NCBI RefSeq assembly: GCF_024643285.1
Contig: NZ_JAMSLW010000004.1
Coordinates: 186,001 to 250,000 of the forward strand
Direction of reading: 5' to 3'
Length of the DNA: 64,000 nt
Source: Parapedobacter lycopersici
GTDB lineage: Bacteria; Bacteroidota; Bacteroidia; Sphingobacteriales; Sphingobacteriaceae
Position 1 is the stretch's first letter, and every line of letters starts with the position of its first letter. Below, in pieces: positions 24,843 to 33,630 of this stretch. The notes below the pieces were generated by a model. It did not search any database, had not been told where the DNA came from, and saw only the letters and a program-made list of their open reading frames with translations. A program made the translations under genes and the position numbers.

Positions 24843-24953
24843 TTTTACTGGCGTAAAAGTAAAAATAAAATGTGATTAGGCAATAAGCCGGTTGCTTTTT
24901 CATATATGTAGAGGAAATCCACATTTGGCGACGCACCGTTACTTTGGCATTTT

Positions 24954-25004
24954 AACGGCAGTAAACAGCGACATGAATGCATTACGTCACGGTTTACTGC
25001 CGTT
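24954..25004. repeat. Long perfect inverted repeat (13-bp arms)
   Basis: AACGGCAGTAAAC at 24954-24966 and its exact complement at 24992-25004 enclose 25 bases that contain the palindrome AATGCATT. It lies between the riboswitch of the CLC-F gene and the end of the RraA-like gene (stop at 25020). There is no T-run on either side, so it may be a 3'-end stabilising or processing structure of the SusCD transcript rather than a classical terminator. Confidence 0.7.
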
Positions 25005-25019
25005 ATGGAACTAACGATA

Positions 25020-25955
25020 TTAATCCTCCCAGCGACTAAGGTATTTCTCGATATCTTCTTTCGTGACAGTTAGTTCTTCAGGGTATTGGTCAAACCAAGC
25101 GCGGAATTCACCCTTGATCTGCTCGCTCCATTTCCCGTGGATCTCTCCCGATGGATATTTTGACTGGCGCAGCAAATAACGCTCAAATTCATCCCGCAAG
25201 GCCGTCATCTCTGATGACGCCACCAATCCCCCAACTAAATGTGCAGGAATAAAGACTACCCCATAGTCATTTGCAAACACCACATCTCCTGGAAACACGG
25301 TAACTCCTTCAACCCGAATGGGTGCATTAATTGATATGGGTGTCATATCGCGAATGTATGATGGGTCGTGGCCTTTAATCCAGGCATTGAACCCTGCTGT
25401 TTCCTTCAGCTCCTGCATATCACGAATTGAGCCGTCAAAGACTACGCCCTTACCTGTTTTTCCGTAAATTGCATTTCCCAAACTCGAACCGATTAGTGTA
25501 CCGTCTTTCACTTTCCCGAATCCATCTGCTACGTAAACATCCCCTTTGGTCAATATGTCAATCGGCCAAATGTTATTCCCTCCGCTCTGTGAAAGCCCCT
25601 CCTTCTGGCCTGCAACCTTTACCAAACTATCAAGGTCAGGGCGCGCAGGCATAAAACGGGCAGTAACAACCCGACCGACCATTGTTTCTCCCGGATTCAG
25701 CATTTGCCAATCTTTTGCTACCTGATGATGGTAGCCGCGGCCCCCAAGGTATCCCCAGATCTGCTCCAACGTGCAATGTTCCAATCGTTTCAACATTGCA
25801 TCCGGAACATGGGGACGTCCATCGGGGAAGCGCTCACCTCGCCATTGTGCAGTTAACGACTGAACGTATTCCGGAGATGTACCAACACTCGGACGCTGAC
25901 CAAATGCATTGGCCGATAACAATAAGAAACAAAAAACTAAAATGAAATTATTCAT
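25020..25955 (-). CDS. Exported RraA-like protein (HMG/CHA aldolase-type fold)
   Basis: 311 residues with a signal peptide (FILVFCFLLLSANAFGQ, about residues 4-20), so it should act in the periplasm. The RraA/DlpA core covers about residues 50-270 and has the family region YGKTGKGVVFDGSIRD, whose Arg-Asp pair binds substrate and metal in 4-hydroxy-4-methyl-2-oxoglutarate aldolases; later comes GDVVFANDYGVVFIP. Cytosolic members are either aldolases or RNase E inhibitors; an exported one suggests a small keto-acid or sugar-acid substrate. It is the last gene of the SusCD locus, 57 bp after the YhcH-like gene. Confidence 0.82.
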   Translation of the reverse strand: MNNFILVFCFLLLSANAFGQRPSVGTSPEYVQSLTAQWRGERFPDGRPHVPDAMLKRLEHCTLEQIWGYLGGRGYHHQVAKDWQMLNPGETMVGRVVTARFMPARPDLDSLVKVAGQKEGLSQSGGNNIWPIDILTKGDVYVADGFGKVKDGTLIGSSLGNAIYGKTGKGVVFDGSIRDMQELKETAGFNAWIKGHDPSYIRDMTPISINAPIRVEGVTVFPGDVVFANDYGVVFIPAHLVGGLVASSEMTALRDEFERYLLRQSKYPSGEIHGKWSEQIKGEFRAWFDQYPEELTVTKEDIEKYLSRWED

Positions 25956-26012
25956 CGTTATATGATTTAATAAATGAATGGATTTAACAATAATAGGATA
26001 GCACCATGACGC

Positions 26013-26639
26013 TCATGGTACCCTTATCTTGATTAATATTTTTTTTACCGTATCGTACCCATCGGCTTTAAAAGCAGGGCGATGGATATCCTTAGGTGAA
26101 AAGATAAAAAACGTTCCCGGTCCAGCCTCATAATAGTCGCCCCCATCAACAACATACGTTTTCGTATCCTGTCTGTCATTATAAGGAGTTGCCACGCTAG
26201 CGTAAGGGTTGTTTACTGAGGTGATCCCCATGAACGTTTTTCCAGTGATTATGTACTGTAAGTCATTGAAATTAGCATGCGTTTCCCAATTAACCTCCCC
26301 CCTTTCTTTTGCCGGTCCATCAGCAACGAAGGCGATAACATGATCAGGAACAATGACATATCTTCCAGGTGCAAGTGCAATAAGATCTTCATTTTTCAAG
26401 AATTCAAATGCTTTATCCCACCATTCCGGATGCTGATGATACTGGCTACTAAACTCCTGACGATTAATGGATAAATGCGGGGTAAGTTTCAGTCCATTTA
26501 ACCATTGGTATGTTTCGTACCACGTGGTAACATCCTGCTCCCCCAATTCAACCCTGGCTGATTGTGCAAAAGCACTGGCGCACGTCAATATCATAGCGAT
26601 TATAGTCATCCTTATCTTTAAGGCAGCTGTTTTTTTCAT
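26013..26639 (-). CDS. Exported YhcH/YjgK/YiaL-family protein
   Basis: 208 residues with a signal peptide (MTIIAMILTCASAFAQ, near residues 11-26). The YhcH/YjgK/YiaL (DUF386) cupin-like domain covers about residues 60-208, with metal-ligand-type positions in ETHANFNDLQYIITG and GTFFIFSPKDIHRPAF. E. coli relatives are cytosolic and linked to sialic acid (YhcH/NanQ) or other sugar-acid pathways as anomerases. Here it would work in the periplasm on the compound taken up by the SusCD pair. It lies 21 bp after the susD-like gene, in the same transcript. Confidence 0.84.
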   Translation of the reverse strand: MKKTAALKIRMTIIAMILTCASAFAQSARVELGEQDVTTWYETYQWLNGLKLTPHLSINRQEFSSQYHQHPEWWDKAFEFLKNEDLIALAPGRYVIVPDHVIAFVADGPAKERGEVNWETHANFNDLQYIITGKTFMGITSVNNPYASVATPYNDRQDTKTYVVDGGDYYEAGPGTFFIFSPKDIHRPAFKADGYDTVKKILIKIRVP

Positions 26640-26660
26640 AGCAATTTTCCTATAAATACG

Positions 26661-28277
26661 TTAGAATTCCGGGTTTTGCGGAAATTCATCTTTATTCGTA
26701 AGTCGGTCGATCATATTGCTTGGGATCGGTCGCAATAGGAACTTCTCTCGGATATTATTGCGACCGGCGGGATTATATAGCTTCACCCGTTCGATAAGTT
26801 TTCCCGTACGCTTTAAATCAGCCCATCTCAACCTTTCACCCCCCAGTTCCAATGCCCGTTCATTCAGGATAAAATCAAGGTCTAACTGGCTGGCAGTAAT
26901 CTTCATCTGTTCTTCCTTACCGGGCCAAGCAGCTCTTTCCCTTACCCGATTAATATACTTGACCCCCTCGGCTGATCTATTTAGTTTCATCAACGCCTCC
27001 GCCGCAATGAGGTACATTTCAGCCAAACGGATTTCGATAACACTTCTCGTCCCGCTATTTGCATTGATCGATTCACGATTGGGGTCGTTCCACTTATTTA
27101 ACTTCGGATATATTTGAAGTGCCCCTACCGGATTTTCACCGTCATAATAGTCACGGATGTCCATCACTTTATAAGGTTTGGATGCCTTGTACTCGTCAGG
27201 CACCGCATATGGGAGGATTACAAACGCCGTATCACCGATATTCATTCCCTGAGGCAAAGTAGGTGTGTAATTTGCCAAATACGTATCCCGCCAGCTTTTA
27301 TCATAGCGCGAATCATTATCCCGATTCGCCTGCATCAAATCAAGGTAAAAGCGGGTAGCCATATATCGTGGATAAGGCCGATCATAGATCAAGCTACGGG
27401 TCATCCCCGGCTGAAGGTCATAACGGGGTGTAAAATAAAGGTAAATTGAAGTATTCGGCCCATTTAGTCGGTTGTTTTGTGAGAATTGAATCGACCAAAT
27501 TGTCTCCATATTCGTGGGAATATTCGGATCCCACAGTTCAGCATAATCCTGCACTAAATCGAATCCGTAGCCATCAATGACTTTCATCGCATATGCTGCC
27601 GCATCCTCGTCGCGTCCAAGTGTGAGGTAAACTCTTGCCAACAACGCCTCCGCTGCGGGTTTAGCTGCACGTCCCCAATCCGACTGTGTGGGCGGAAGTA
27701 AGTCTGCTGCCTTGAGTAAATCGGCTACAATTTGATCATACACCTGGCTTTGCGGTATTCGGGTCGCGGTAGTAGTCACTTCTTTTATCTCTTCGAGAGG
27801 CATGGGCAAATCACCAAAATGCATAACTAGGATATGGTAGTACCAGGCTCGCAGGAAGTAAGCTTCACCTAATTTTGCATTTAGTTCGCTTTCCGTTAAA
27901 CCATTCACGCCCGATGCACGGGAAATTGCCGTATTGCATGCGGAAATCCCGATGTAATAGCCTTCCCATAAATTATATAGGATATTATTACTTGCTTGAA
28001 GAGCAGGAGAATATGTATTGAACTCGTTCGCCTCCACATCAGATGCGCTCGTCCATAAATCCGTGCCATATAACATCGGTGCCAATCCACCCCCATTCAT
28101 TTGCGAGCGTGTCTGTGTATAACACGCATTAATTAAATCGCTAAACCCTGTTGCCGTATTATAGTAGGTATCCGCTGTGGGTTCATTGATATTTTCTTCA
28201 TCAAGCTGGTTGGTACACCCCTGGAGTAAGAGCAGGTTAGCTAAAGCGATTAATAATGTATTTAATATCGTTTTCAT
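26661..28277 (-). CDS. SusD/RagB-family outer-membrane lipoprotein
   Basis: 538 residues. The signal ends in a lipobox LLLLQGC (Cys21), so it is lipid-anchored at the cell surface. The N-terminal SusD-like part has ADTYYNTATGFSDLINACYT and the tetratricopeptide-like helices, and the C-terminal SusD_RagB part includes RLAEMYLIAAEALMKLNR and ending NPEF. SusD proteins bind the nutrient and close as a lid over the SusC barrel. It lies 17 bp after the susC-like gene. The ligand is not predictable, but the lack of hydrolases argues for a small molecule. Confidence 0.93.
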   Translation of the reverse strand: MKTILNTLLIALANLLLLQGCTNQLDEENINEPTADTYYNTATGFSDLINACYTQTRSQMNGGGLAPMLYGTDLWTSASDVEANEFNTYSPALQASNNILYNLWEGYYIGISACNTAISRASGVNGLTESELNAKLGEAYFLRAWYYHILVMHFGDLPMPLEEIKEVTTTATRIPQSQVYDQIVADLLKAADLLPPTQSDWGRAAKPAAEALLARVYLTLGRDEDAAAYAMKVIDGYGFDLVQDYAELWDPNIPTNMETIWSIQFSQNNRLNGPNTSIYLYFTPRYDLQPGMTRSLIYDRPYPRYMATRFYLDLMQANRDNDSRYDKSWRDTYLANYTPTLPQGMNIGDTAFVILPYAVPDEYKASKPYKVMDIRDYYDGENPVGALQIYPKLNKWNDPNRESINANSGTRSVIEIRLAEMYLIAAEALMKLNRSAEGVKYINRVRERAAWPGKEEQMKITASQLDLDFILNERALELGGERLRWADLKRTGKLIERVKLYNPAGRNNIREKFLLRPIPSNMIDRLTNKDEFPQNPEF

Positions 28278-28294
28278 GGTTCAATGTTGAAAAA

Positions 28295-31200
28295 TTAAAA
28301 GCCAATGTTGACCCCTGCAACCACCGTTCTGACCGCAGGATATGTTAAGGTGTCTTCCGCCCAATCGGGTTTCATATTAAATTTCCGCACCTCTGATTTC
28401 GTCCAATAAAACAAATTCATTGCTGAAAGATATATTCTCGCATTGGATAGGTGCAGTTGGTCAAGTGCCGATCGCGGAATCGAATAGCCCAGTGACACCT
28501 GCGGGATTGTGATGTAAGTGGCGTCCCGGTAAGTCAGTGTGCTACCATCAAGACCGCCACCTTCATACAATTGGTTTGGGCGGGGGTATGCATTCGTTGG
28601 ATTATCCGGTGTCCAATAATCAAAGACGAATTTATTGTATCGCTTCTTGGAATAGGGGGCGAAAGCGCCGACAGCGGTCATTCCACCCCACCGGATATAA
28701 GCAGTTACCGAAAAATCCCAGTTTTTATAAGAGAACTGGTTGGTCATATTGGCCACAAAATCAGGTTCACGATCGCCTAAGATCATACGATCTGCAGCCG
28801 ATATATTGCCATCATCATTTAAATCCAATACTTTTATTTGTCCCGGAACACGTCCATAGCTCGCAGCGTCTGTTGCTTCATCCAGCTGCCAGATGCCGAT
28901 CTTTTGGTAATCGTAATAGACATTTATCGGATGTCCGATAAACCAGCCATTTCCAATATCATCTATCTTACCATTGTACAGTTCAGTGATTCTGGATCTA
29001 TTGGTATACAATGTGAAATTTGTATTCCATTTGAAATCCGGGCGGGTGATGTTAACGGTACGAAGCCCTACTTCAAAACCTTTGTTCGTTGTGCTACCCA
29101 CATTTTCCAGCACTTGGTCGTAGCCAGATGTAATGGGTAGTTTCCGAAACATGAGCAAATCGTAGGTATTGGTATGATATACTTCGACGTTACCGCTGAC
29201 TCTTCCGGCCCATAGTCCGAAATCAACACCAACATTGTAAACTGCTGTGCTTTCCCATTTGAGGTTTTTGTTTGCCAAAGCCGCAGGTCGATAGCCAAAT
29301 CCCGCATTTTCGTTCCAGGAATAGGTCGTTCTTTCCAGACTTCCCTGTGTCTGATAAGGATTAATGGCCTGATTGCCGGTAACGCCATAAGAGAGCCTCA
29401 GTTTCAGGTTGGAAAGCCAATCCTGAAAACCGGCCATAAAAGGCTCTTCGGAGATATTGTAGGCAAAAGCGATAGACGGAAAGTATCCCCATTTATGATT
29501 GTCAGCAAATTGGGAAGCGCCATCAGCACGCATGGAAAGCGTTAATAAGTATTTGCTTTTATAGCCATAGAATATACGTGCGGCATAAGAGAGTAGGGTC
29601 CACTCCGATAAACTGGAGCTCACCTCATTCACGACATTTGCACTTCCAATATTATGATATCTAGAAGGCTCATAAGGCACGTCGGTCACACCTGCACCAC
29701 TGGTTTCTGTATGTGTGGCCTGAAAACCATGGACGCCCGTCACGGTTAATTGATGGTCTTCGTTAAACGTTTTATTGTACGTAAGAATACTTTCGTACAA
29801 CTTAAAGTTATTAATCGCGTTGTCTATATTTGCAGTCGGTAATCCAAGGTTTCGCATAATCGAATAATAACCTGCCGATTCTTTCTCCGTTGCTAACCTG
29901 AAATTCGTTCCCACACTCAAACGGTATGTTAATTCCGGTAGAATTTTCGCTTCTCCATAGGCATTTACAAATGCGTCCCAACGTTTATTATCATACCGAT
30001 AAGAATCAAACAAGTAATCGGCTAATGGGTTTATTTCAAAACCATCGGTGGTAAGTGCGAATCTCGGGGATCCGTCCTCATTGTATACCTGACCTAACGG
30101 GCTGCCATTAACGGCATAATAAGTCAATGCGCGGGGATCCGTTTTGTTGGAGTTTATACTGTAGTTCAGCTGGATCGATGTGCCCGCGGTGATAATTGGC
30201 GAAAGTGTAAAGTCCAGATTCGTTCGCATACTGATGCGATTAAAAATATCGTCTGGCAAAATCCCCTCCTCATTAAAATAATTCGCCGCAAAATTATATT
30301 TCACCGCTTCACTCCCACCCATAATCGATAACTGGTGCTTCTGCTGATGTCCATTTTGTAACAGTAAATCTTGGTAATCAAGCCCCGGCCCACCTGATTT
30401 TAACGTTTCCAATTCAATTGCATCAAAAACAGCGTCATCATATTTGGGGTTAACACCGGGGTCCGGATAGCCTCCCGAAGCACGAAATGCTTCCCGGGCC
30501 CAGTCTGCATATTGAGTTGCGTCAGCATAAGGCATTCTTCCGTAGCGGAATTGCGCCCCGGCGTAACTTTCTATCAGGAACCGTGGTTTGCCTGATTCAC
30601 CCCGCTTTGTGGTGATCATAATTACCCCATTTGAACCTCTTGAACCATAAATCGCCGTTGATGAGGCATCCTTTAACACGTCGACGCTCTTGATATCATA
30701 AGGATTAATGTCGTTAATGGTTCCATAAAAGGGCATCCCATCCACAATAATCAAGGGATCATTTGAAGCGGTAAATGAGCGGGTTCCGCGAAGCAAAATG
30801 GCAGATTCGCTACCGGGATCCCCACCGGAAGAAACAATATCCAATCCGGCTACTCGACCGCTCAGTGCCTGACTAACATTTGCAACAGGCATGTCTGCAA
30901 AATCCTCTGCCGAAACAGAACTTACTGCACCAGTTAAATCCTTCCGCTTTTGTGTTCCGTATCCAACGACCACAACCTCTTCTAATGCCCGTTGATCTGC
31001 ACTAAGCTGGACATTAATGACAAGTTGATTATTGATACTGACTTCCTGTGAAATAAAACCAATATAACTGATTTCTAAAACACCATCAGGTGCTGCGTCA
31101 ATAGTAAATTCACCCCGCTCATTTGTCAGTGTACTATGGGTTGTCCCTTTTAACGTAACTGTAGCACCGGTAATAGGTATATTGCTTTCGTTTGTAATTG

Positions 31201-31588
31201 TTCCGCTAACCTGTACTTGAACCGGCACCATAAACGTTGGTTTGGGATGTATAGTACTCCACTTCGGACGAATAAGTATGGTACGGTCGCTCAACTCGTA
31301 ATTAAAAGGTTGATTTTTTAGTGCCTGTCGCAGCGCTTCCTCTACTGAAGCACCTTTTATTTCGATGGTCACCGGATTGGCCATCTCACGTAATAAATCG
31401 GCGTTGTAAAGTAATTGATAACCGCTCTGGAGTCTGATTTTTTGCAGCACGGCCCCTAAAGACACGTTTTTTTCAGTTAAGACAATGTCCTGGGAAAAAG
31501 CAGCGGCCGAGACATGAAGGTTGACCGCCACTAATAAAACAGTTGTAAGCTTCATGATCAAAAGCCATTTCAATGTGCTTAAATTCAT
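28295..31588 (-). CDS. SusC/RagA-family TonB-dependent transporter with STN signalling domain
   Basis: 1097 residues. After the signal peptide, an STN (secretin/TonB short N-terminal) domain lies at about residues 35-108 (VSLGAVLQKIRLQSGYQLLY), then a CarboxypepD_reg-like domain (about 125-210), the motif EEVVVVGYGTQKRKDLTGAV of the SusC plug, the plug itself and a large beta-barrel ending in GVNIGF. It imports its ligand across the outer membrane using TonB energy. The STN domain signals occupancy to a FecR-type anti-sigma factor, which is encoded next upstream (31735-32976), followed by the sigma gene. Confidence 0.94.
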   Translation of the reverse strand: MNLSTLKWLLIMKLTTVLLVAVNLHVSAAAFSQDIVLTEKNVSLGAVLQKIRLQSGYQLLYNADLLREMANPVTIEIKGASVEEALRQALKNQPFNYELSDRTILIRPKWSTIHPKPTFMVPVQVQVSGTITNESNIPITGATVTLKGTTHSTLTNERGEFTIDAAPDGVLEISYIGFISQEVSINNQLVINVQLSADQRALEEVVVVGYGTQKRKDLTGAVSSVSAEDFADMPVANVSQALSGRVAGLDIVSSGGDPGSESAILLRGTRSFTASNDPLIIVDGMPFYGTINDINPYDIKSVDVLKDASSTAIYGSRGSNGVIMITTKRGESGKPRFLIESYAGAQFRYGRMPYADATQYADWAREAFRASGGYPDPGVNPKYDDAVFDAIELETLKSGGPGLDYQDLLLQNGHQQKHQLSIMGGSEAVKYNFAANYFNEEGILPDDIFNRISMRTNLDFTLSPIITAGTSIQLNYSINSNKTDPRALTYYAVNGSPLGQVYNEDGSPRFALTTDGFEINPLADYLFDSYRYDNKRWDAFVNAYGEAKILPELTYRLSVGTNFRLATEKESAGYYSIMRNLGLPTANIDNAINNFKLYESILTYNKTFNEDHQLTVTGVHGFQATHTETSGAGVTDVPYEPSRYHNIGSANVVNEVSSSLSEWTLLSYAARIFYGYKSKYLLTLSMRADGASQFADNHKWGYFPSIAFAYNISEEPFMAGFQDWLSNLKLRLSYGVTGNQAINPYQTQGSLERTTYSWNENAGFGYRPAALANKNLKWESTAVYNVGVDFGLWAGRVSGNVEVYHTNTYDLLMFRKLPITSGYDQVLENVGSTTNKGFEVGLRTVNITRPDFKWNTNFTLYTNRSRITELYNGKIDDIGNGWFIGHPINVYYDYQKIGIWQLDEATDAASYGRVPGQIKVLDLNDDGNISAADRMILGDREPDFVANMTNQFSYKNWDFSVTAYIRWGGMTAVGAFAPYSKKRYNKFVFDYWTPDNPTNAYPRPNQLYEGGGLDGSTLTYRDATYITIPQVSLGYSIPRSALDQLHLSNARIYLSAMNLFYWTKSEVRKFNMKPDWAEDTLTYPAVRTVVAGVNIGF

Positions 31589-31654
31589 TATATTTGTATT
31601 GTTTTAAGGTGATTAATCTGTTACTTATCATTGCGGAATTTTGCCTTAATCATA

Positions 31655-31678
31655 CCGGATACGTGGCTGCGTATCCGG
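31655..31678. terminator. Strong hairpin between the fecR-like and susC-like genes
   Basis: CCGGATACG and CGTATCCGG form a perfect 9-bp stem with a 6-nt loop. It lies 57 bp after the fecR-like stop and would separate the sigma/anti-sigma transcript from the susC transcript. The T-rich side faces the plus direction, so it may act as an imperfect terminator or attenuator for the minus-strand transcript. Confidence 0.55.
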
Positions 31679-31734
31679 CTTTATTTATTGTAAGGCACTG
31701 ATCGTTTCGTTTATACTACATAGGCATATCATTT

Positions 31735-32976
31735 TTAGGGTTTAACTTTAATGGTTCTGTTTTTTATCTCGAAGTGAGTATTGCCGGTCTTTTCAAACAT
31801 TTCCAACACACGGGACAGCGGCACATCTCTGGAGATAAAGCCATTATACCGGGTATTGGGTAGGTGCGTATAATCAACCTCCACATCATACCAGCGTGAT
31901 AATTGTCGCATGATCATATGTAATGGCTGATCGTTAAACAAAAAATTACCATCTTTCCATGAGTATTCATTTTCGACATTGACCTGAGTCACATCCAGTT
32001 GGTCGTTCGCTAATACCGCCTGTTCTCCGGGTTTTAAGACCTTTTGCTGTGGTCCAAGTGCCCCGGCTGCCGCAGAGACCGTAACGCGTACGCCACCTTC
32101 AAGTAACGTTGTCTTTACCGCTTCCTCATCTGCATAGGCATTGATATTAAACTTGGTTCCGGTCACTTCAACCTGTTGGTTCCTTGTTTTTACAATAAAA
32201 GGCACTTTATATTGATTCCTGTTTTTGGGTTTCGCAGAAAGGTGTCTTTCTGCATAAAAAGCGTTGGCTACCTCAAAGTAAGCCTCACCATCCAGTTCGA
32301 CTTCCCGTTTGTCGCTGGCAAATTTTGCAGGATATTTCAAGGAAGAAGCTGCATTAAGCCACACTTTGGTTTGATCCGGCAATATAACCTGATACTGGCC
32401 ACTTTTTGGTGTGGTCAATTTATGATACAACATACGGTTATCCGCAAATACAGATCGGCTATTGGCTACTTTATAGACCAATAATCCATCGGCTGTTTTG
32501 CTGATGGTCACATCACCTACCCGGGTAAGAAAACCTTCCTCCTGTTGTGCCAAGACTATTTCATGCCCATCAGCAAGTGTCAACACAGCTTTGTTCCCTC
32601 CGGGAGATACGTCTTCTATTACAATGCTGTTTTCGGATTCAACGGGTACAATTGTCTGATTCTTTTCAGGCCAATATAGGTAGCCGATGAGTGAAAATGC
32701 GATAAATACCACGGCTGCCACAGCAGCTATTTGTCTAAACTCAATGATTGTTGTCGTTTTCTCTCCGGCACTACCTGATTGCTGCTCGTCCAATCTTGCT
32801 AATATGGCTTGATATATGCGCTGACGTATCTCATCCGCATTTGCTGCATCGGGGATATTTACAAACTCCTCAGCGGCAATGATCTGTTCATCATACCACT
32901 TGTGCAGCAATTCCTTTTCTGCTAAAGAGGCATTCCCTGCAATAAATTTTTTTGCAATCTCCCTAATATGATTCAT
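31735..32976 (-). CDS. FecR-family anti-sigma factor
   Basis: 413 residues. The N-terminal 85 residues are cytosolic and bind the sigma factor. One membrane helix follows (IAAVAAVVFIAFSLIGYLYW, about residues 84-103). The FecR domain includes LTTPKSGQYQVILPDQTKVW and LNAASSLKYPAKF, and the end is a DUF4974-type domain (DQPLHMIMRQLSRWYDVEVD). In the absence of substrate it holds the sigma factor; the STN domain of the SusC-like protein relieves this. It lies between the sigma gene (90 bp upstream) and susC. Confidence 0.92.
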   Translation of the reverse strand: MNHIREIAKKFIAGNASLAEKELLHKWYDEQIIAAEEFVNIPDAANADEIRQRIYQAILARLDEQQSGSAGEKTTTIIEFRQIAAVAAVVFIAFSLIGYLYWPEKNQTIVPVESENSIVIEDVSPGGNKAVLTLADGHEIVLAQQEEGFLTRVGDVTISKTADGLLVYKVANSRSVFADNRMLYHKLTTPKSGQYQVILPDQTKVWLNAASSLKYPAKFASDKREVELDGEAYFEVANAFYAERHLSAKPKNRNQYKVPFIVKTRNQQVEVTGTKFNINAYADEEAVKTTLLEGGVRVTVSAAAGALGPQQKVLKPGEQAVLANDQLDVTQVNVENEYSWKDGNFLFNDQPLHMIMRQLSRWYDVEVDYTHLPNTRYNGFISRDVPLSRVLEMFEKTGNTHFEIKNRTIKVKP

Positions 32977-33066
32977 AATTGGTTGTCCAGTATTTCTGGC
33001 TTATCTATTAGGTAGAGTATGGCGATGGGGATTTACCCTTATCTAATTATCTAATTAATTAAAAAA

Positions 33067-33630
33067 TCAAATAAAAAGGGAATATAAACCTTTACCGAAA
33101 CGGCTCCGTATGATTCTAAGCGCCTTGGTAAGGTGCGCTTCCGCCGTCTTTGTTGAGATATGGAGTGTATCTGCAACTTCATGGAGTGGACGATCTTCCA
33201 GTTTATTATACTGAAAAACTAACCGGCATTTTTCTGGCAGATCATTTGACAGCGTTTCAATAATTTCAAGGAGTAGTTTATTTTCTAACGCCTCAGCAGC
33301 ATCTATTGATAACGTCTGATGTCGTTTCCAGTTCTGCTGGTATTCCTGAACCTGTTTTTCTTTGGCAATATAATGGTAAACAGCGTAGCGCACCATAGCG
33401 GCTAAATATACTGGTAACGACCGAATCTGAAGAATTGACTTTCGTTTCCACAGTGTTAGGAATACATCTTGAACGATCTCTTCTGCGGCCGCAGTGTCCT
33501 TTAATTTTTGATAGGCCAAAAAATATAGCTTGTCCCAATATCGATTATAAATTCCGGTGAATGCCGTTTCATCTCCATCTTTCAGGTGGAAGATTAATTC
33601 TGTATCGTTTTTCTCATTAAAATCAGGCAT
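33067..33630 (-). CDS. ECF-type RNA polymerase sigma factor of the SusCD locus
   Basis: 187 residues. Region 2 (AFTGIYNRYWDKLYFLAYQK followed by DTAAAEEIVQDVFLTLWKRK) and region 4 (LPEKCRLVFQYNKLEDRPLH, then EVADTLHISTKTAEAHLTKA) are clear. It directs RNA polymerase to the susC promoter when freed by the FecR-like protein encoded 90 bp downstream. It is the first gene of the locus. A promoter-like pair sits before it at 33645-33677. Confidence 0.93.
   Translation of the reverse strand: MPDFNEKNDTELIFHLKDGDETAFTGIYNRYWDKLYFLAYQKLKDTAAAEEIVQDVFLTLWKRKSILQIRSLPVYLAAMVRYAVYHYIAKEKQVQEYQQNWKRHQTLSIDAAEALENKLLLEIIETLSNDLPEKCRLVFQYNKLEDRPLHEVADTLHISTKTAEAHLTKALRIIRSRFGKGLYSLFI

Follow-up and report, generated by a model that had tools for sequence, protein, structure and literature searches.

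We identified a six-gene locus on the minus strand of the window (the whole 64,000-nucleotide stretch of DNA that was analysed), at 25020-33630, in which genes for an ECF sigma factor, a FecR-type protein, an STN-bearing SusC and a SusD are followed by genes for a DUF386/YhcH protein and an RraA-like protein. SusCD loci are commonly interpreted as polysaccharide loci. We tentatively suggest that this one may well serve the inducible uptake and processing of a small sugar acid; the likeliest ligand is a hexuronate or a short uronide that other organisms liberate. The features of the locus are as follows.

33067..33630, minus strand: ECF sigma factor of the Bacteroidetes Sig70 subfamily, TIGR02985-like (Pfam Sigma70_r2 and r4)
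31735..32976, minus strand: FecR-type anti-sigma factor (Pfam FecR and FecR_C)
31648..31685, no strand: inverted repeat in the FecR-SusC gap
28295..31588, minus strand: SusC/RagA TonB-dependent transporter with an STN signalling domain (Pfam STN, CarbopepD_reg and Plug)
26661..28277, minus strand: SusD-family protein (Pfam SusD_RagB, 3.5e-30, and SusD-like_3)
26013..26639, minus strand: DUF386/YhcH protein, putatively exported, likely a sugar-acid anomerase (Pfam DUF386, 1.7e-28; Sec-type leader)
25020..25955, minus strand: probably exported RraA-like protein with a likely role as lyase or decarboxylase of 2-keto-(3-deoxy) sugar acids (Pfam RraA-like, 9.3e-20)
24953..25005, no strand: 20-nt inverted repeat, 90% complementary, directly downstream of the RraA gene

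The intergenic gaps are 90 bases (sigma-FecR), 146 (FecR-SusC), 17 (SusC-SusD), 21 (SusD-YhcH) and 57 (YhcH-RraA), and the flanking genes are unrelated: 238 bases downstream lies a gene for a CLC chloride channel, and 471 bases upstream one for an ABC-type permease. SusC scored 830.9 bits against TIGR04056 (cut-off 368.25), and the sigma factor matched TIGR02985 at 9e-36 and 123.5 bits, under the cut-off of 126.4. The sequence-only reading had claimed a sigma/FecR/STN-SusC/SusD chain without any hydrolase, lyase, sulfatase or peptidase, and both the coordinates and the Pfam domains agree with this; in the Pfam scan, none of the six genes matched a glycoside hydrolase, a lyase, a sulfatase or a peptidase. 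Of the marks of a polysaccharide-utilization locus (PUL), the SusC/SusD pair is present (Pfam, TIGR04056), and a carbohydrate-active enzyme was not found when the six genes and their neighbours were scanned with Pfam.

The nature of the ligand was approached through the gene neighbourhoods of relatives, the reference proteins for the counts being drawn from the same locus sets. Among 28 loci of leader-bearing YhcH proteins, selected from matches in 72 of 251 genomes, 11 held uronate-catabolism genes by strict markers and the other 17 lacked a strict marker; UxuA-type genes of the leaderless form occurred in six, and some leader-bearing YhcH proteins were lone lipoproteins adjoining housekeeping genes. 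Pectin or galacturonate genes lay beside eight of 20 selected SusD relatives (39-44% identity), the other 12 having no pectin marker; a sulfatase or GH92 was present in two of these neighbourhoods and sigma/FecR genes in three. For RraA, 35 distinct neighbourhoods remained from 37 loci after removal of L166, identical to L012, and of L177, in which the RraA ORF was not picked. An MR/MLE sugar-acid dehydratase was present in 21 of them (23 when UxuA-type proteins were included), compared with none in the YhcH (0/28) and SusD (0/20) neighbourhoods used as controls. A twin-arginine (Tat-type RR) motif was detected by regular expression in 30 of the 37 MR/MLE proteins, and the remaining seven show RR leaders by eye. 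SusC lay within 7 kb in 15 of the 35 RraA neighbourhoods, on the same strand in 11, an SBF carrier was found in 11, and uronate markers other than UxuA were found in none. Taken together, the YhcH (11/28), SusD (8/20) and RraA (21/35) lines suggest that the ligand is a sugar acid, perhaps a hexuronate. The sequence-only reading had named close homologues lying consistently beside polysaccharide-degrading enzymes as evidence against itself, and this applies in part: it is seen for the eight SusD relatives beside pectin or galacturonate genes and for six of the 28 YhcH neighbourhoods, which hold a GH88, GH28, CE8 or alginate-lyase-family gene.

The window RraA-like protein (311 residues with its leader) scored well above the family cut-off (71.8 versus 24.5, Pfam), and its predicted model (mean pLDDT 83.5) gave RraA-fold proteins as best structure matches. 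Its Arg178-Asp179 aligns to Arg123-Asp124 of the HMG/CHA aldolase (3noj), in which Arg123 has been termed essential (PMC5065237), and the pair is kept in 50 of 51 RraA sequences. The fold and the Arg-Asp pair are thus shared with 3noj and with RraAS2 (5x15), whereas identity to these two in the structure search is only 17% and 24% respectively, the score lies far under the LigK cut-off, and a leader is present here. Regulation of RNase E by this protein was considered and dismissed, since leaders occur in its relatives and the Arg-Asp pair is preserved. The leader of the window protein, MNNFILVFCFLLLSANAFGQ, has no Lys or Arg ahead of the hydrophobic core and so fails our heuristic, which demanded such a residue in the n-region and on which the Sec and lipoprotein calls are based. 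However, 48 of 50 RraA-type ORFs in the sampled loci passed it (47 Sec, one lipoprotein; paralogues and one duplicate are included), and a paralogue in the same genome (contig C22), 84% identical, starts MKNLILL. RraA is probably exported, and so, by the heuristic, is YhcH, which has an ordinary Sec-type leader. The earlier claim that both small proteins carry signal peptides holds for YhcH and is less direct for RraA. Within the family searched, other long YhcH and RraA proteins with leaders are found repeatedly, so such proteins are not peculiar to the window locus.

The YhcH protein exceeded the curated DUF386 cut-off (99.9 versus 26.5) and that of TIGR00022 (56.7 versus 45.5). Glu119, His121, Asp126 and His186 are invariant in 29 of 29 sequences, and these residues may be metal ligands. 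E. coli YhcH is a Zn-containing, chelator-inhibited N-acetylneuraminate anomerase (PMC8141875); the window protein belongs to the same DUF386 family as this YhcH/NanQ enzyme, although it bears a leader, is ~50 residues longer and does not reach the equivalog cut-off for the anomerase. We abandoned a firm assignment of the window protein to the uronate-linked copies, because the tree was too poorly resolved, with no starred set and an end branch of 1.43 for this protein.

The two small proteins do not form a conserved pair. YhcH adjoined RraA in the window locus only, and elsewhere in none of 45 YhcH and 39 RraA distinct places (from 62 and 60 locus records, many with 1.5 kb flanks only). A phylum-wide YhcH search matched nine of 395 genomes at E up to 1e-25, its own genome included, and RraA was absent from the five new loci. 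As the two never co-occur in the other loci examined, the link is not conserved, and a conserved order SusCD-YhcH-RraA was dismissed.

This isolated adjacency fits an alternative that we consider rather unlikely, namely that the locus is an orphaned core of a pectin-type PUL, whose SusCD takes up oligogalacturonides or further uronide oligomers that community neighbours, or enzymes encoded at other places in the genome, have cut, with YhcH as a leftover of uronate catabolism and RraA as a copy made recently within the genome that came to lie downstream and has no special role here. The pectin setting of the SusD relatives and the close C22 paralogue point the same way, as does base composition, the G+C of the RraA gene (0.478) being higher than that of the sigma, FecR, SusC, SusD and YhcH genes (0.399-0.452). 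Against it, the 57-base gap on one strand is consistent with co-transcription of YhcH and RraA, the catalytic residues of RraA are kept, and neither GH28 nor KduI was found in the genome search. The locus does resemble the pectin/galacturonate PULs of Bacteroidota in its SusC and SusD relatives, but is without their GH28, CE8, PL10 and GH88.

Uptake of sialate or another nonulosonate, with a NanOU-like SusCD, ring opening by YhcH and RraA as an extracytoplasmic aldolase, would draw on the E. coli anomerase and on NanOU of Tannerella forsythia, a SusCD pair taking up free sialic acid (PMC3969230); as in that system, a SusCD pair would serve a free sugar acid, and DUF386 proteins work in sialate pathways. 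This ligand is less likely since the window SusD reached only 44.8 bits against the NanU model NF033072 (cut-off 425) and YhcH only 49.8 against the anomerase model (cut-off 160). Uronate or aldonate genes were seen in the neighbourhoods inspected, and the locus differs from NanOU in its two additional leader-type proteins and in relatives that point to uronates. We therefore regard sialate as improbable. We give slightly less credence still to action of RraA on a non-sugar keto-diacid (aromatic-derived HMG/CHA or oxaloacetate), with SusCD importing an aromatic-sugar conjugate. The HMG/CHA aldolase 3noj is a relative in both sequence and structure and the LigK (HMG/CHA aldolase) equivalog model matches RraA, but at 51.3 bits, short of its cut-off of 304.5, and no aromatic-ring-cleavage gene was recognised by eye in those RraA neighbourhoods that were inspected.

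Under the preferred sugar-acid reading, the STN domain, FecR and the ECF sigma factor would sense the SusCD-bound ligand, as their domain make-up suggests. SusCD would carry the sugar acid to the periplasm, where exported YhcH may open or anomerise the ring, and the RraA-type lyase may then act on a 2-keto-3-deoxy sugar acid by aldol cleavage or by dehydration/decarboxylation; the order of these steps is likewise presumptive. The locus holds neither a dehydratase nor an inner-membrane carrier, and so the RraA substrate must arise elsewhere. No exported dehydratase was found in the window locus (Pfam), and such proteins are present elsewhere in the genome. Other exported enzymes, such as PQQ dehydrogenases and MR/MLE or UxuA-type dehydratases, could supply the substrate, and small products might cross the inner membrane via BASS/SBF- or ExuT/D-galactonate-type carriers. 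Candidate partners are encoded in this genome: an ExuT-like carrier, adjacent UxuA and UxaC (both without leaders), a Tat-leader protein that passes the NCBIfam galactonate dehydratase cut-off (445.5 versus 311), and additional SusCD loci in which Tat-leader dehydratases and PQQ dehydrogenases are encoded. In several SusCD loci of this genome, Tat-leader sugar-acid dehydratases, PQQ dehydrogenases or carriers are present and no hydrolase was recognised, and the C22 paralogue of RraA itself has a PQQ dehydrogenase, a SusCD pair and two UxuA-family proteins as neighbours.

A precedent for the RraA step is FlDet of Flavobacterium sp. UMI-01, a cytosolic RraA-family 2-keto-3-deoxy-D-glucarate dehydratase/decarboxylase of a uronate pathway (PMC8563752). 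By its description it is alike in family, phylum and uronate-derived substrate, whereas it has 237 residues, a determined N-terminus that starts with Met and adjoining alginate genes. It was inactive on DEHU, KDG, KDPG and 4-hydroxy-2-oxoglutarate and EDTA had no effect (PMC8563752), so members of the RraA family can be narrow in what they accept, and a dependence on metal is not assured. With this precedent and the three neighbourhood lines, the earlier proposal of uptake and periplasmic processing of a small acid is supported in part, for a uronate-like compound, and its sialate part is disfavoured by the NanU and anomerase scores.

With less confidence, we consider it possible that, in Sphingobacteriaceae and their relatives, the upper steps of a non-phosphorylative (Entner-Doudoroff/De Ley-Doudoroff-like) route for sugar acids take place extracytoplasmically, in a system of which the window locus would be a uronate-tuned branch. 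Sugars or sugar acids would be imported by SusCD and oxidized by PQQ dehydrogenases, Tat-exported MR/MLE and UxuA-type dehydratases would yield 2-keto-3-deoxy acids, exported RraA lyases, with YhcH ring-openers, would split or decarboxylate these, and only small acids would pass the inner membrane, via BASS- or galactonate-type carriers. SAR202 bacteria, with non-phosphorylative sugar-acid catabolism, likewise have many MR/MLE sugar-acid dehydratase paralogues per genome (PMC10444878); here, in contrast, the dehydratases bear Tat leaders and adjoin SusCD, and a term search of the SAR202 text returned neither 'periplasm' nor 'RraA'. In the open-licence PMC literature, no report was found of RraA with SusD, of a periplasmic RraA aldolase or a twin-arginine galactonate dehydratase in Bacteroidetes, and no title among those surveyed described such a system. 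Within this literature, the earlier statement that no described system of this make-up was known stands for the exact make-up and needs qualifying for SusCD uptake of a free sugar acid, known from NanOU. Precedents exist in NanOU and FlDet; greater novelty lies in the proposed wider extracytoplasmic system. If it is true, many 'enzyme-less' SusCD operons of environmental Bacteroidota would serve to scavenge sugar acids. The periplasm would then be a site of substantial carbon metabolism (dehydration, decarboxylation or aldol cleavage), and both the prediction of function and notions of how bacteria cross-feed on residues of pectin and hemicellulose would shift.

A scan for sigma-70-type promoters gave a result near chance (25 found versus a mean of 21.5), and 14 terminator-like sites were found versus 9.1.

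The six-gene row proposed from the sequence alone proved to be real, contiguous and confined to one strand, with gaps of 90, 146, 17, 21 and 57 bases in the order from sigma to RraA, and it is separated from a CLC channel gene by 238 bases and from an ABC-type permease gene by 471 bases.

33067–33630, minus strand, ECF sigma gene
31735–32976, minus strand, FecR gene
28295–31588, minus strand, SusC gene with STN domain
26661–28277, minus strand, SusD gene
26013–26639, minus strand, DUF386/YhcH gene
25020–25955, minus strand, RraA-like gene

Pfam and NCBIfam searches matched none of the six genes to a hydrolase, lyase, sulfatase or peptidase family, in agreement with the initial claim that degradative enzymes are absent. 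The G+C contents of the sigma, FecR, SusC, SusD and YhcH genes (0.399–0.452) are below those of the surroundings (0.467–0.523 in four nearby genes; 0.476 across the window), and the RraA gene is higher at 0.478; thus the locus may be a recent arrival with an RraA gene of separate origin. Downstream of the RraA gene, a 20-nt inverted repeat (24953–25005; 90% complementary, 13-nt spacer) is a candidate terminator or operator.

Both small proteins had been credited with signal peptides. Using a simple and crude heuristic (hydrophobic core, positive n-region, and cleavage or lipobox pattern), this was upheld for the window YhcH and not for the window RraA, whose leader MNNFILVFCFLLLSANAFGQ contains no Lys or Arg. 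In the sampled loci the heuristic was passed by 27 of 29 YhcH-type ORFs and by 48 of 50 RraA-type ORFs (47 Sec and one lipoprotein; the 50 include paralogues and one duplicate). The corresponding counts for cytosolic controls were KduI 0/8, KdgA 0/4, UxaB 0/5, KduD 1/14 and KdgK 1/5; unlike most of these, Ppx of the window also passed.

The window RraA-like protein matches the Pfam RraA-like family (9.3e-20) and reached no NCBIfam cut-off, LigK included. Its AlphaFold model (mean pLDDT 83.5) was structurally closest to RraAS2 (5x15), followed by 3k4i and 3noj. Arg178–Asp179 align with Arg123–Asp124 of the HMG/CHA aldolase 3noj (numbering counted from the alignment), in which Arg123 is described as essential in the excerpted text of PMC5065237. 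This pair is kept in 50 of 51 aligned RraA sequences, and the catalytic Arg–Asp is lost solely in a P. lycopersici copy at locus L006. Four RraA-like genes are present in this genome; the closest paralogue, 84% identical to the window copy, lies on contig C22 beside a PQQ dehydrogenase, SusD, SusC and two UxuA-family proteins. Further paralogues (L006:7951–11463 and L008:6462–12232) lie beside amidohydrolases and Tat-leader SelA-like PLP proteins (Pfam-checked in L006, called by eye in L008), and the L008 locus also encodes a leader-bearing RidA/YjgF-like protein.

A scan of genome contigs gave 17 relatives of the window RraA at 66–72% identity, and a family-level search (E up to 1e-90) found a match in 23 of 251 genomes, P. 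lycopersici included. We analysed 35 distinct RraA neighbourhoods (7 kb each side), with genes called by BLAST to Pfam-checked reference proteins. An MR/MLE sugar-acid dehydratase was present in 21, a UxuA-type protein in six, and either or both in 23; SusC was found in 15 (same strand in 11), an SBF carrier in 11, an MFS carrier in six, a DUF4440 protein in ten and a PQQ dehydrogenase in four. With the references used, YhcH, GH28, CE8, PL10, GH88, KduI, KduD and Uxa genes were found in none of the 35. The control sets gave MR/MLE 0/28 and UxuA 6/28 (leaderless form) around YhcH relatives, and 0/20 for both around SusD relatives, although absence in other sets may be overstated, since the reference proteins were partly drawn from the same locus sets. 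A Tat-type motif was detected by regular expression in 30 of 37 MR/MLE proteins, the remaining seven also having an RR leader by eye, and in nine of 15 UxuA-type proteins, the six without it all coming from YhcH loci. A striking paralogue array was seen in Adhaeribacter aquaticus (L011:912–17836), with eight MR/MLE genes bearing RR leaders around three RraA-type genes.

The window YhcH is a member of a long, leader-bearing form of DUF386, and no other DUF386 gene was found in P. lycopersici; a long or short form was matched in 72 of 251 family genomes (E up to 1e-10). A tree gave no firm placement of the window copy. Glu119, His121, Asp126 and His186 are invariant in all 29 YhcH sequences and may bind metal; E. 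coli YhcH is a Zn-containing, chelator-inhibited anomerase according to the excerpted text of PMC8141875. Several of the best relatives adjoin KduI, KduD, KdgK, KdgA, an ExuT-like MFS carrier, UxuA, GH88, a cupin or an alginate-lyase-family protein. By strict uronate markers (KduI, UxuA, GH88, KdgK, KdgA, UxaC, alginate lyase and cupin), 11 of 28 YhcH neighbourhoods were uronate loci and 17 fell outside, lone lipoproteins at housekeeping sites among them; the same markers minus UxuA were found in 0 of 35 RraA neighbourhoods. Another SusCD locus with a predicted exported YhcH occurs in a congener (L074:2–10779), as a row of SusC, SusD, an 880-aa protein, a malate-synthase-like protein, a lipoprotein-like YhcH and a permease. 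A further row (L073:8897–17589) comprises SusC, SusD, a lyxose-isomerase-like protein (by eye), a lipoprotein-like YhcH and an MFS carrier, from which exported YhcH may have a role with neutral sugars as well.

All 62 records of YhcH loci (45 distinct places) lacked RraA, and all 60 records of RraA loci (39 distinct places) lacked YhcH, many of these having only 1.5 kb flanks; the YhcH–RraA pairing thus did not recur when a conserved gene order was sought elsewhere. No counterpart of the window SusD was detected in RraA loci at 1e-30. The locus seems to bring together parts that serve sugar acids separately elsewhere. In the open-licence literature, screened by title and abstract start, we found no description of this make-up, of an exported RraA or of exported sugar-acid dehydratases in SusCD loci. 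The sequence-only reading that no such system had been described therefore stands, within that literature, for the exact make-up; it does not extend to the import of free sugar acids by SusCD, of which NanOU (PMC3969230, in excerpt) is a known case.

The chief competing explanation is a SusCD core of the pectin type that has been orphaned, with RraA as a stray copy. SusD relatives (E up to 1e-90) were found in 15 of the 395 genomes searched at class level and in 21 of the 201 searched at family level, both counts including P. lycopersici, and the best apart from itself is 44% identical. Pectin or galacturonate genes (GH28, CE8, PL10, GH88, UxaA, UxaB, UxaC or KduI) occur in eight of 20 SusD neighbourhoods; a sulfatase is present in L130 and a GH92 in L122. 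In the P. lycopersici genome, leaderless UxuA and UxaC genes lie next to each other, and our searches of it found neither GH28 nor KduI; hence, as judged from gene content, glucuronate-type catabolism has candidate enzymes and polygalacturonase-based pectin use has none. Sialate, which had been proposed along with a small keto-acid or uronate, and an aromatic compound are weaker readings; the parts of the locus point jointly to a sugar acid, for which a hexuronate is the likeliest candidate.

FlDet offers the closest biochemical precedent for an RraA protein working in a sugar-acid setting. In the excerpted text of PMC8563752, it converts 2-keto-3-deoxy-D-glucarate into 2-ketoglutarate semialdehyde and is inactive on DEHU, KDG, KDPG and 4-hydroxy-2-oxoglutarate; Mg, Co and Ni activate it, and EDTA has no effect. 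We therefore propose that the window RraA would act on a 2-keto-3-deoxy sugar (di)acid, which exported oxidases and dehydratases encoded elsewhere would supply. We give inducible uptake and extracytoplasmic processing of a small sugar acid, as a whole, slightly less than an even chance, an estimate lowered a little because FlDet is unaffected by EDTA and UxuA is present in the YhcH control set.

Nine MR/MLE matches over cut-off are present in P. lycopersici, and several of its SusCD loci, the first two listed below among them, have no recognised hydrolase. The loci on contigs C16 and C12 were read by BLAST to references and by eye, with a profile scan covering ten of their proteins.

C16:1–9k, SusCD, MR/MLE, SBF and UxuA; the contig begins there
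C16:472–491k, MR/MLE, SusCD, PQQ dehydrogenase, ExuT-like carrier, MR/MLE, SusCD, MR/MLE, kinase-like gene and KdgA-like gene
C16:262–271k, SusCD with PQQ dehydrogenase and MR/MLE
C12:459–463k, PQQ dehydrogenase with MR/MLE

A Tat-leader MR/MLE protein at L211:4453–5718 (G000:C16:477501–497000 of this genome) has SusCD pairs on both sides and shares the region with a PQQ dehydrogenase and an ExuT-like carrier. It scored 445.5 against the NCBIfam galactonate dehydratase equivalog cut-off of 311, making it a candidate exported galactonate dehydratase.
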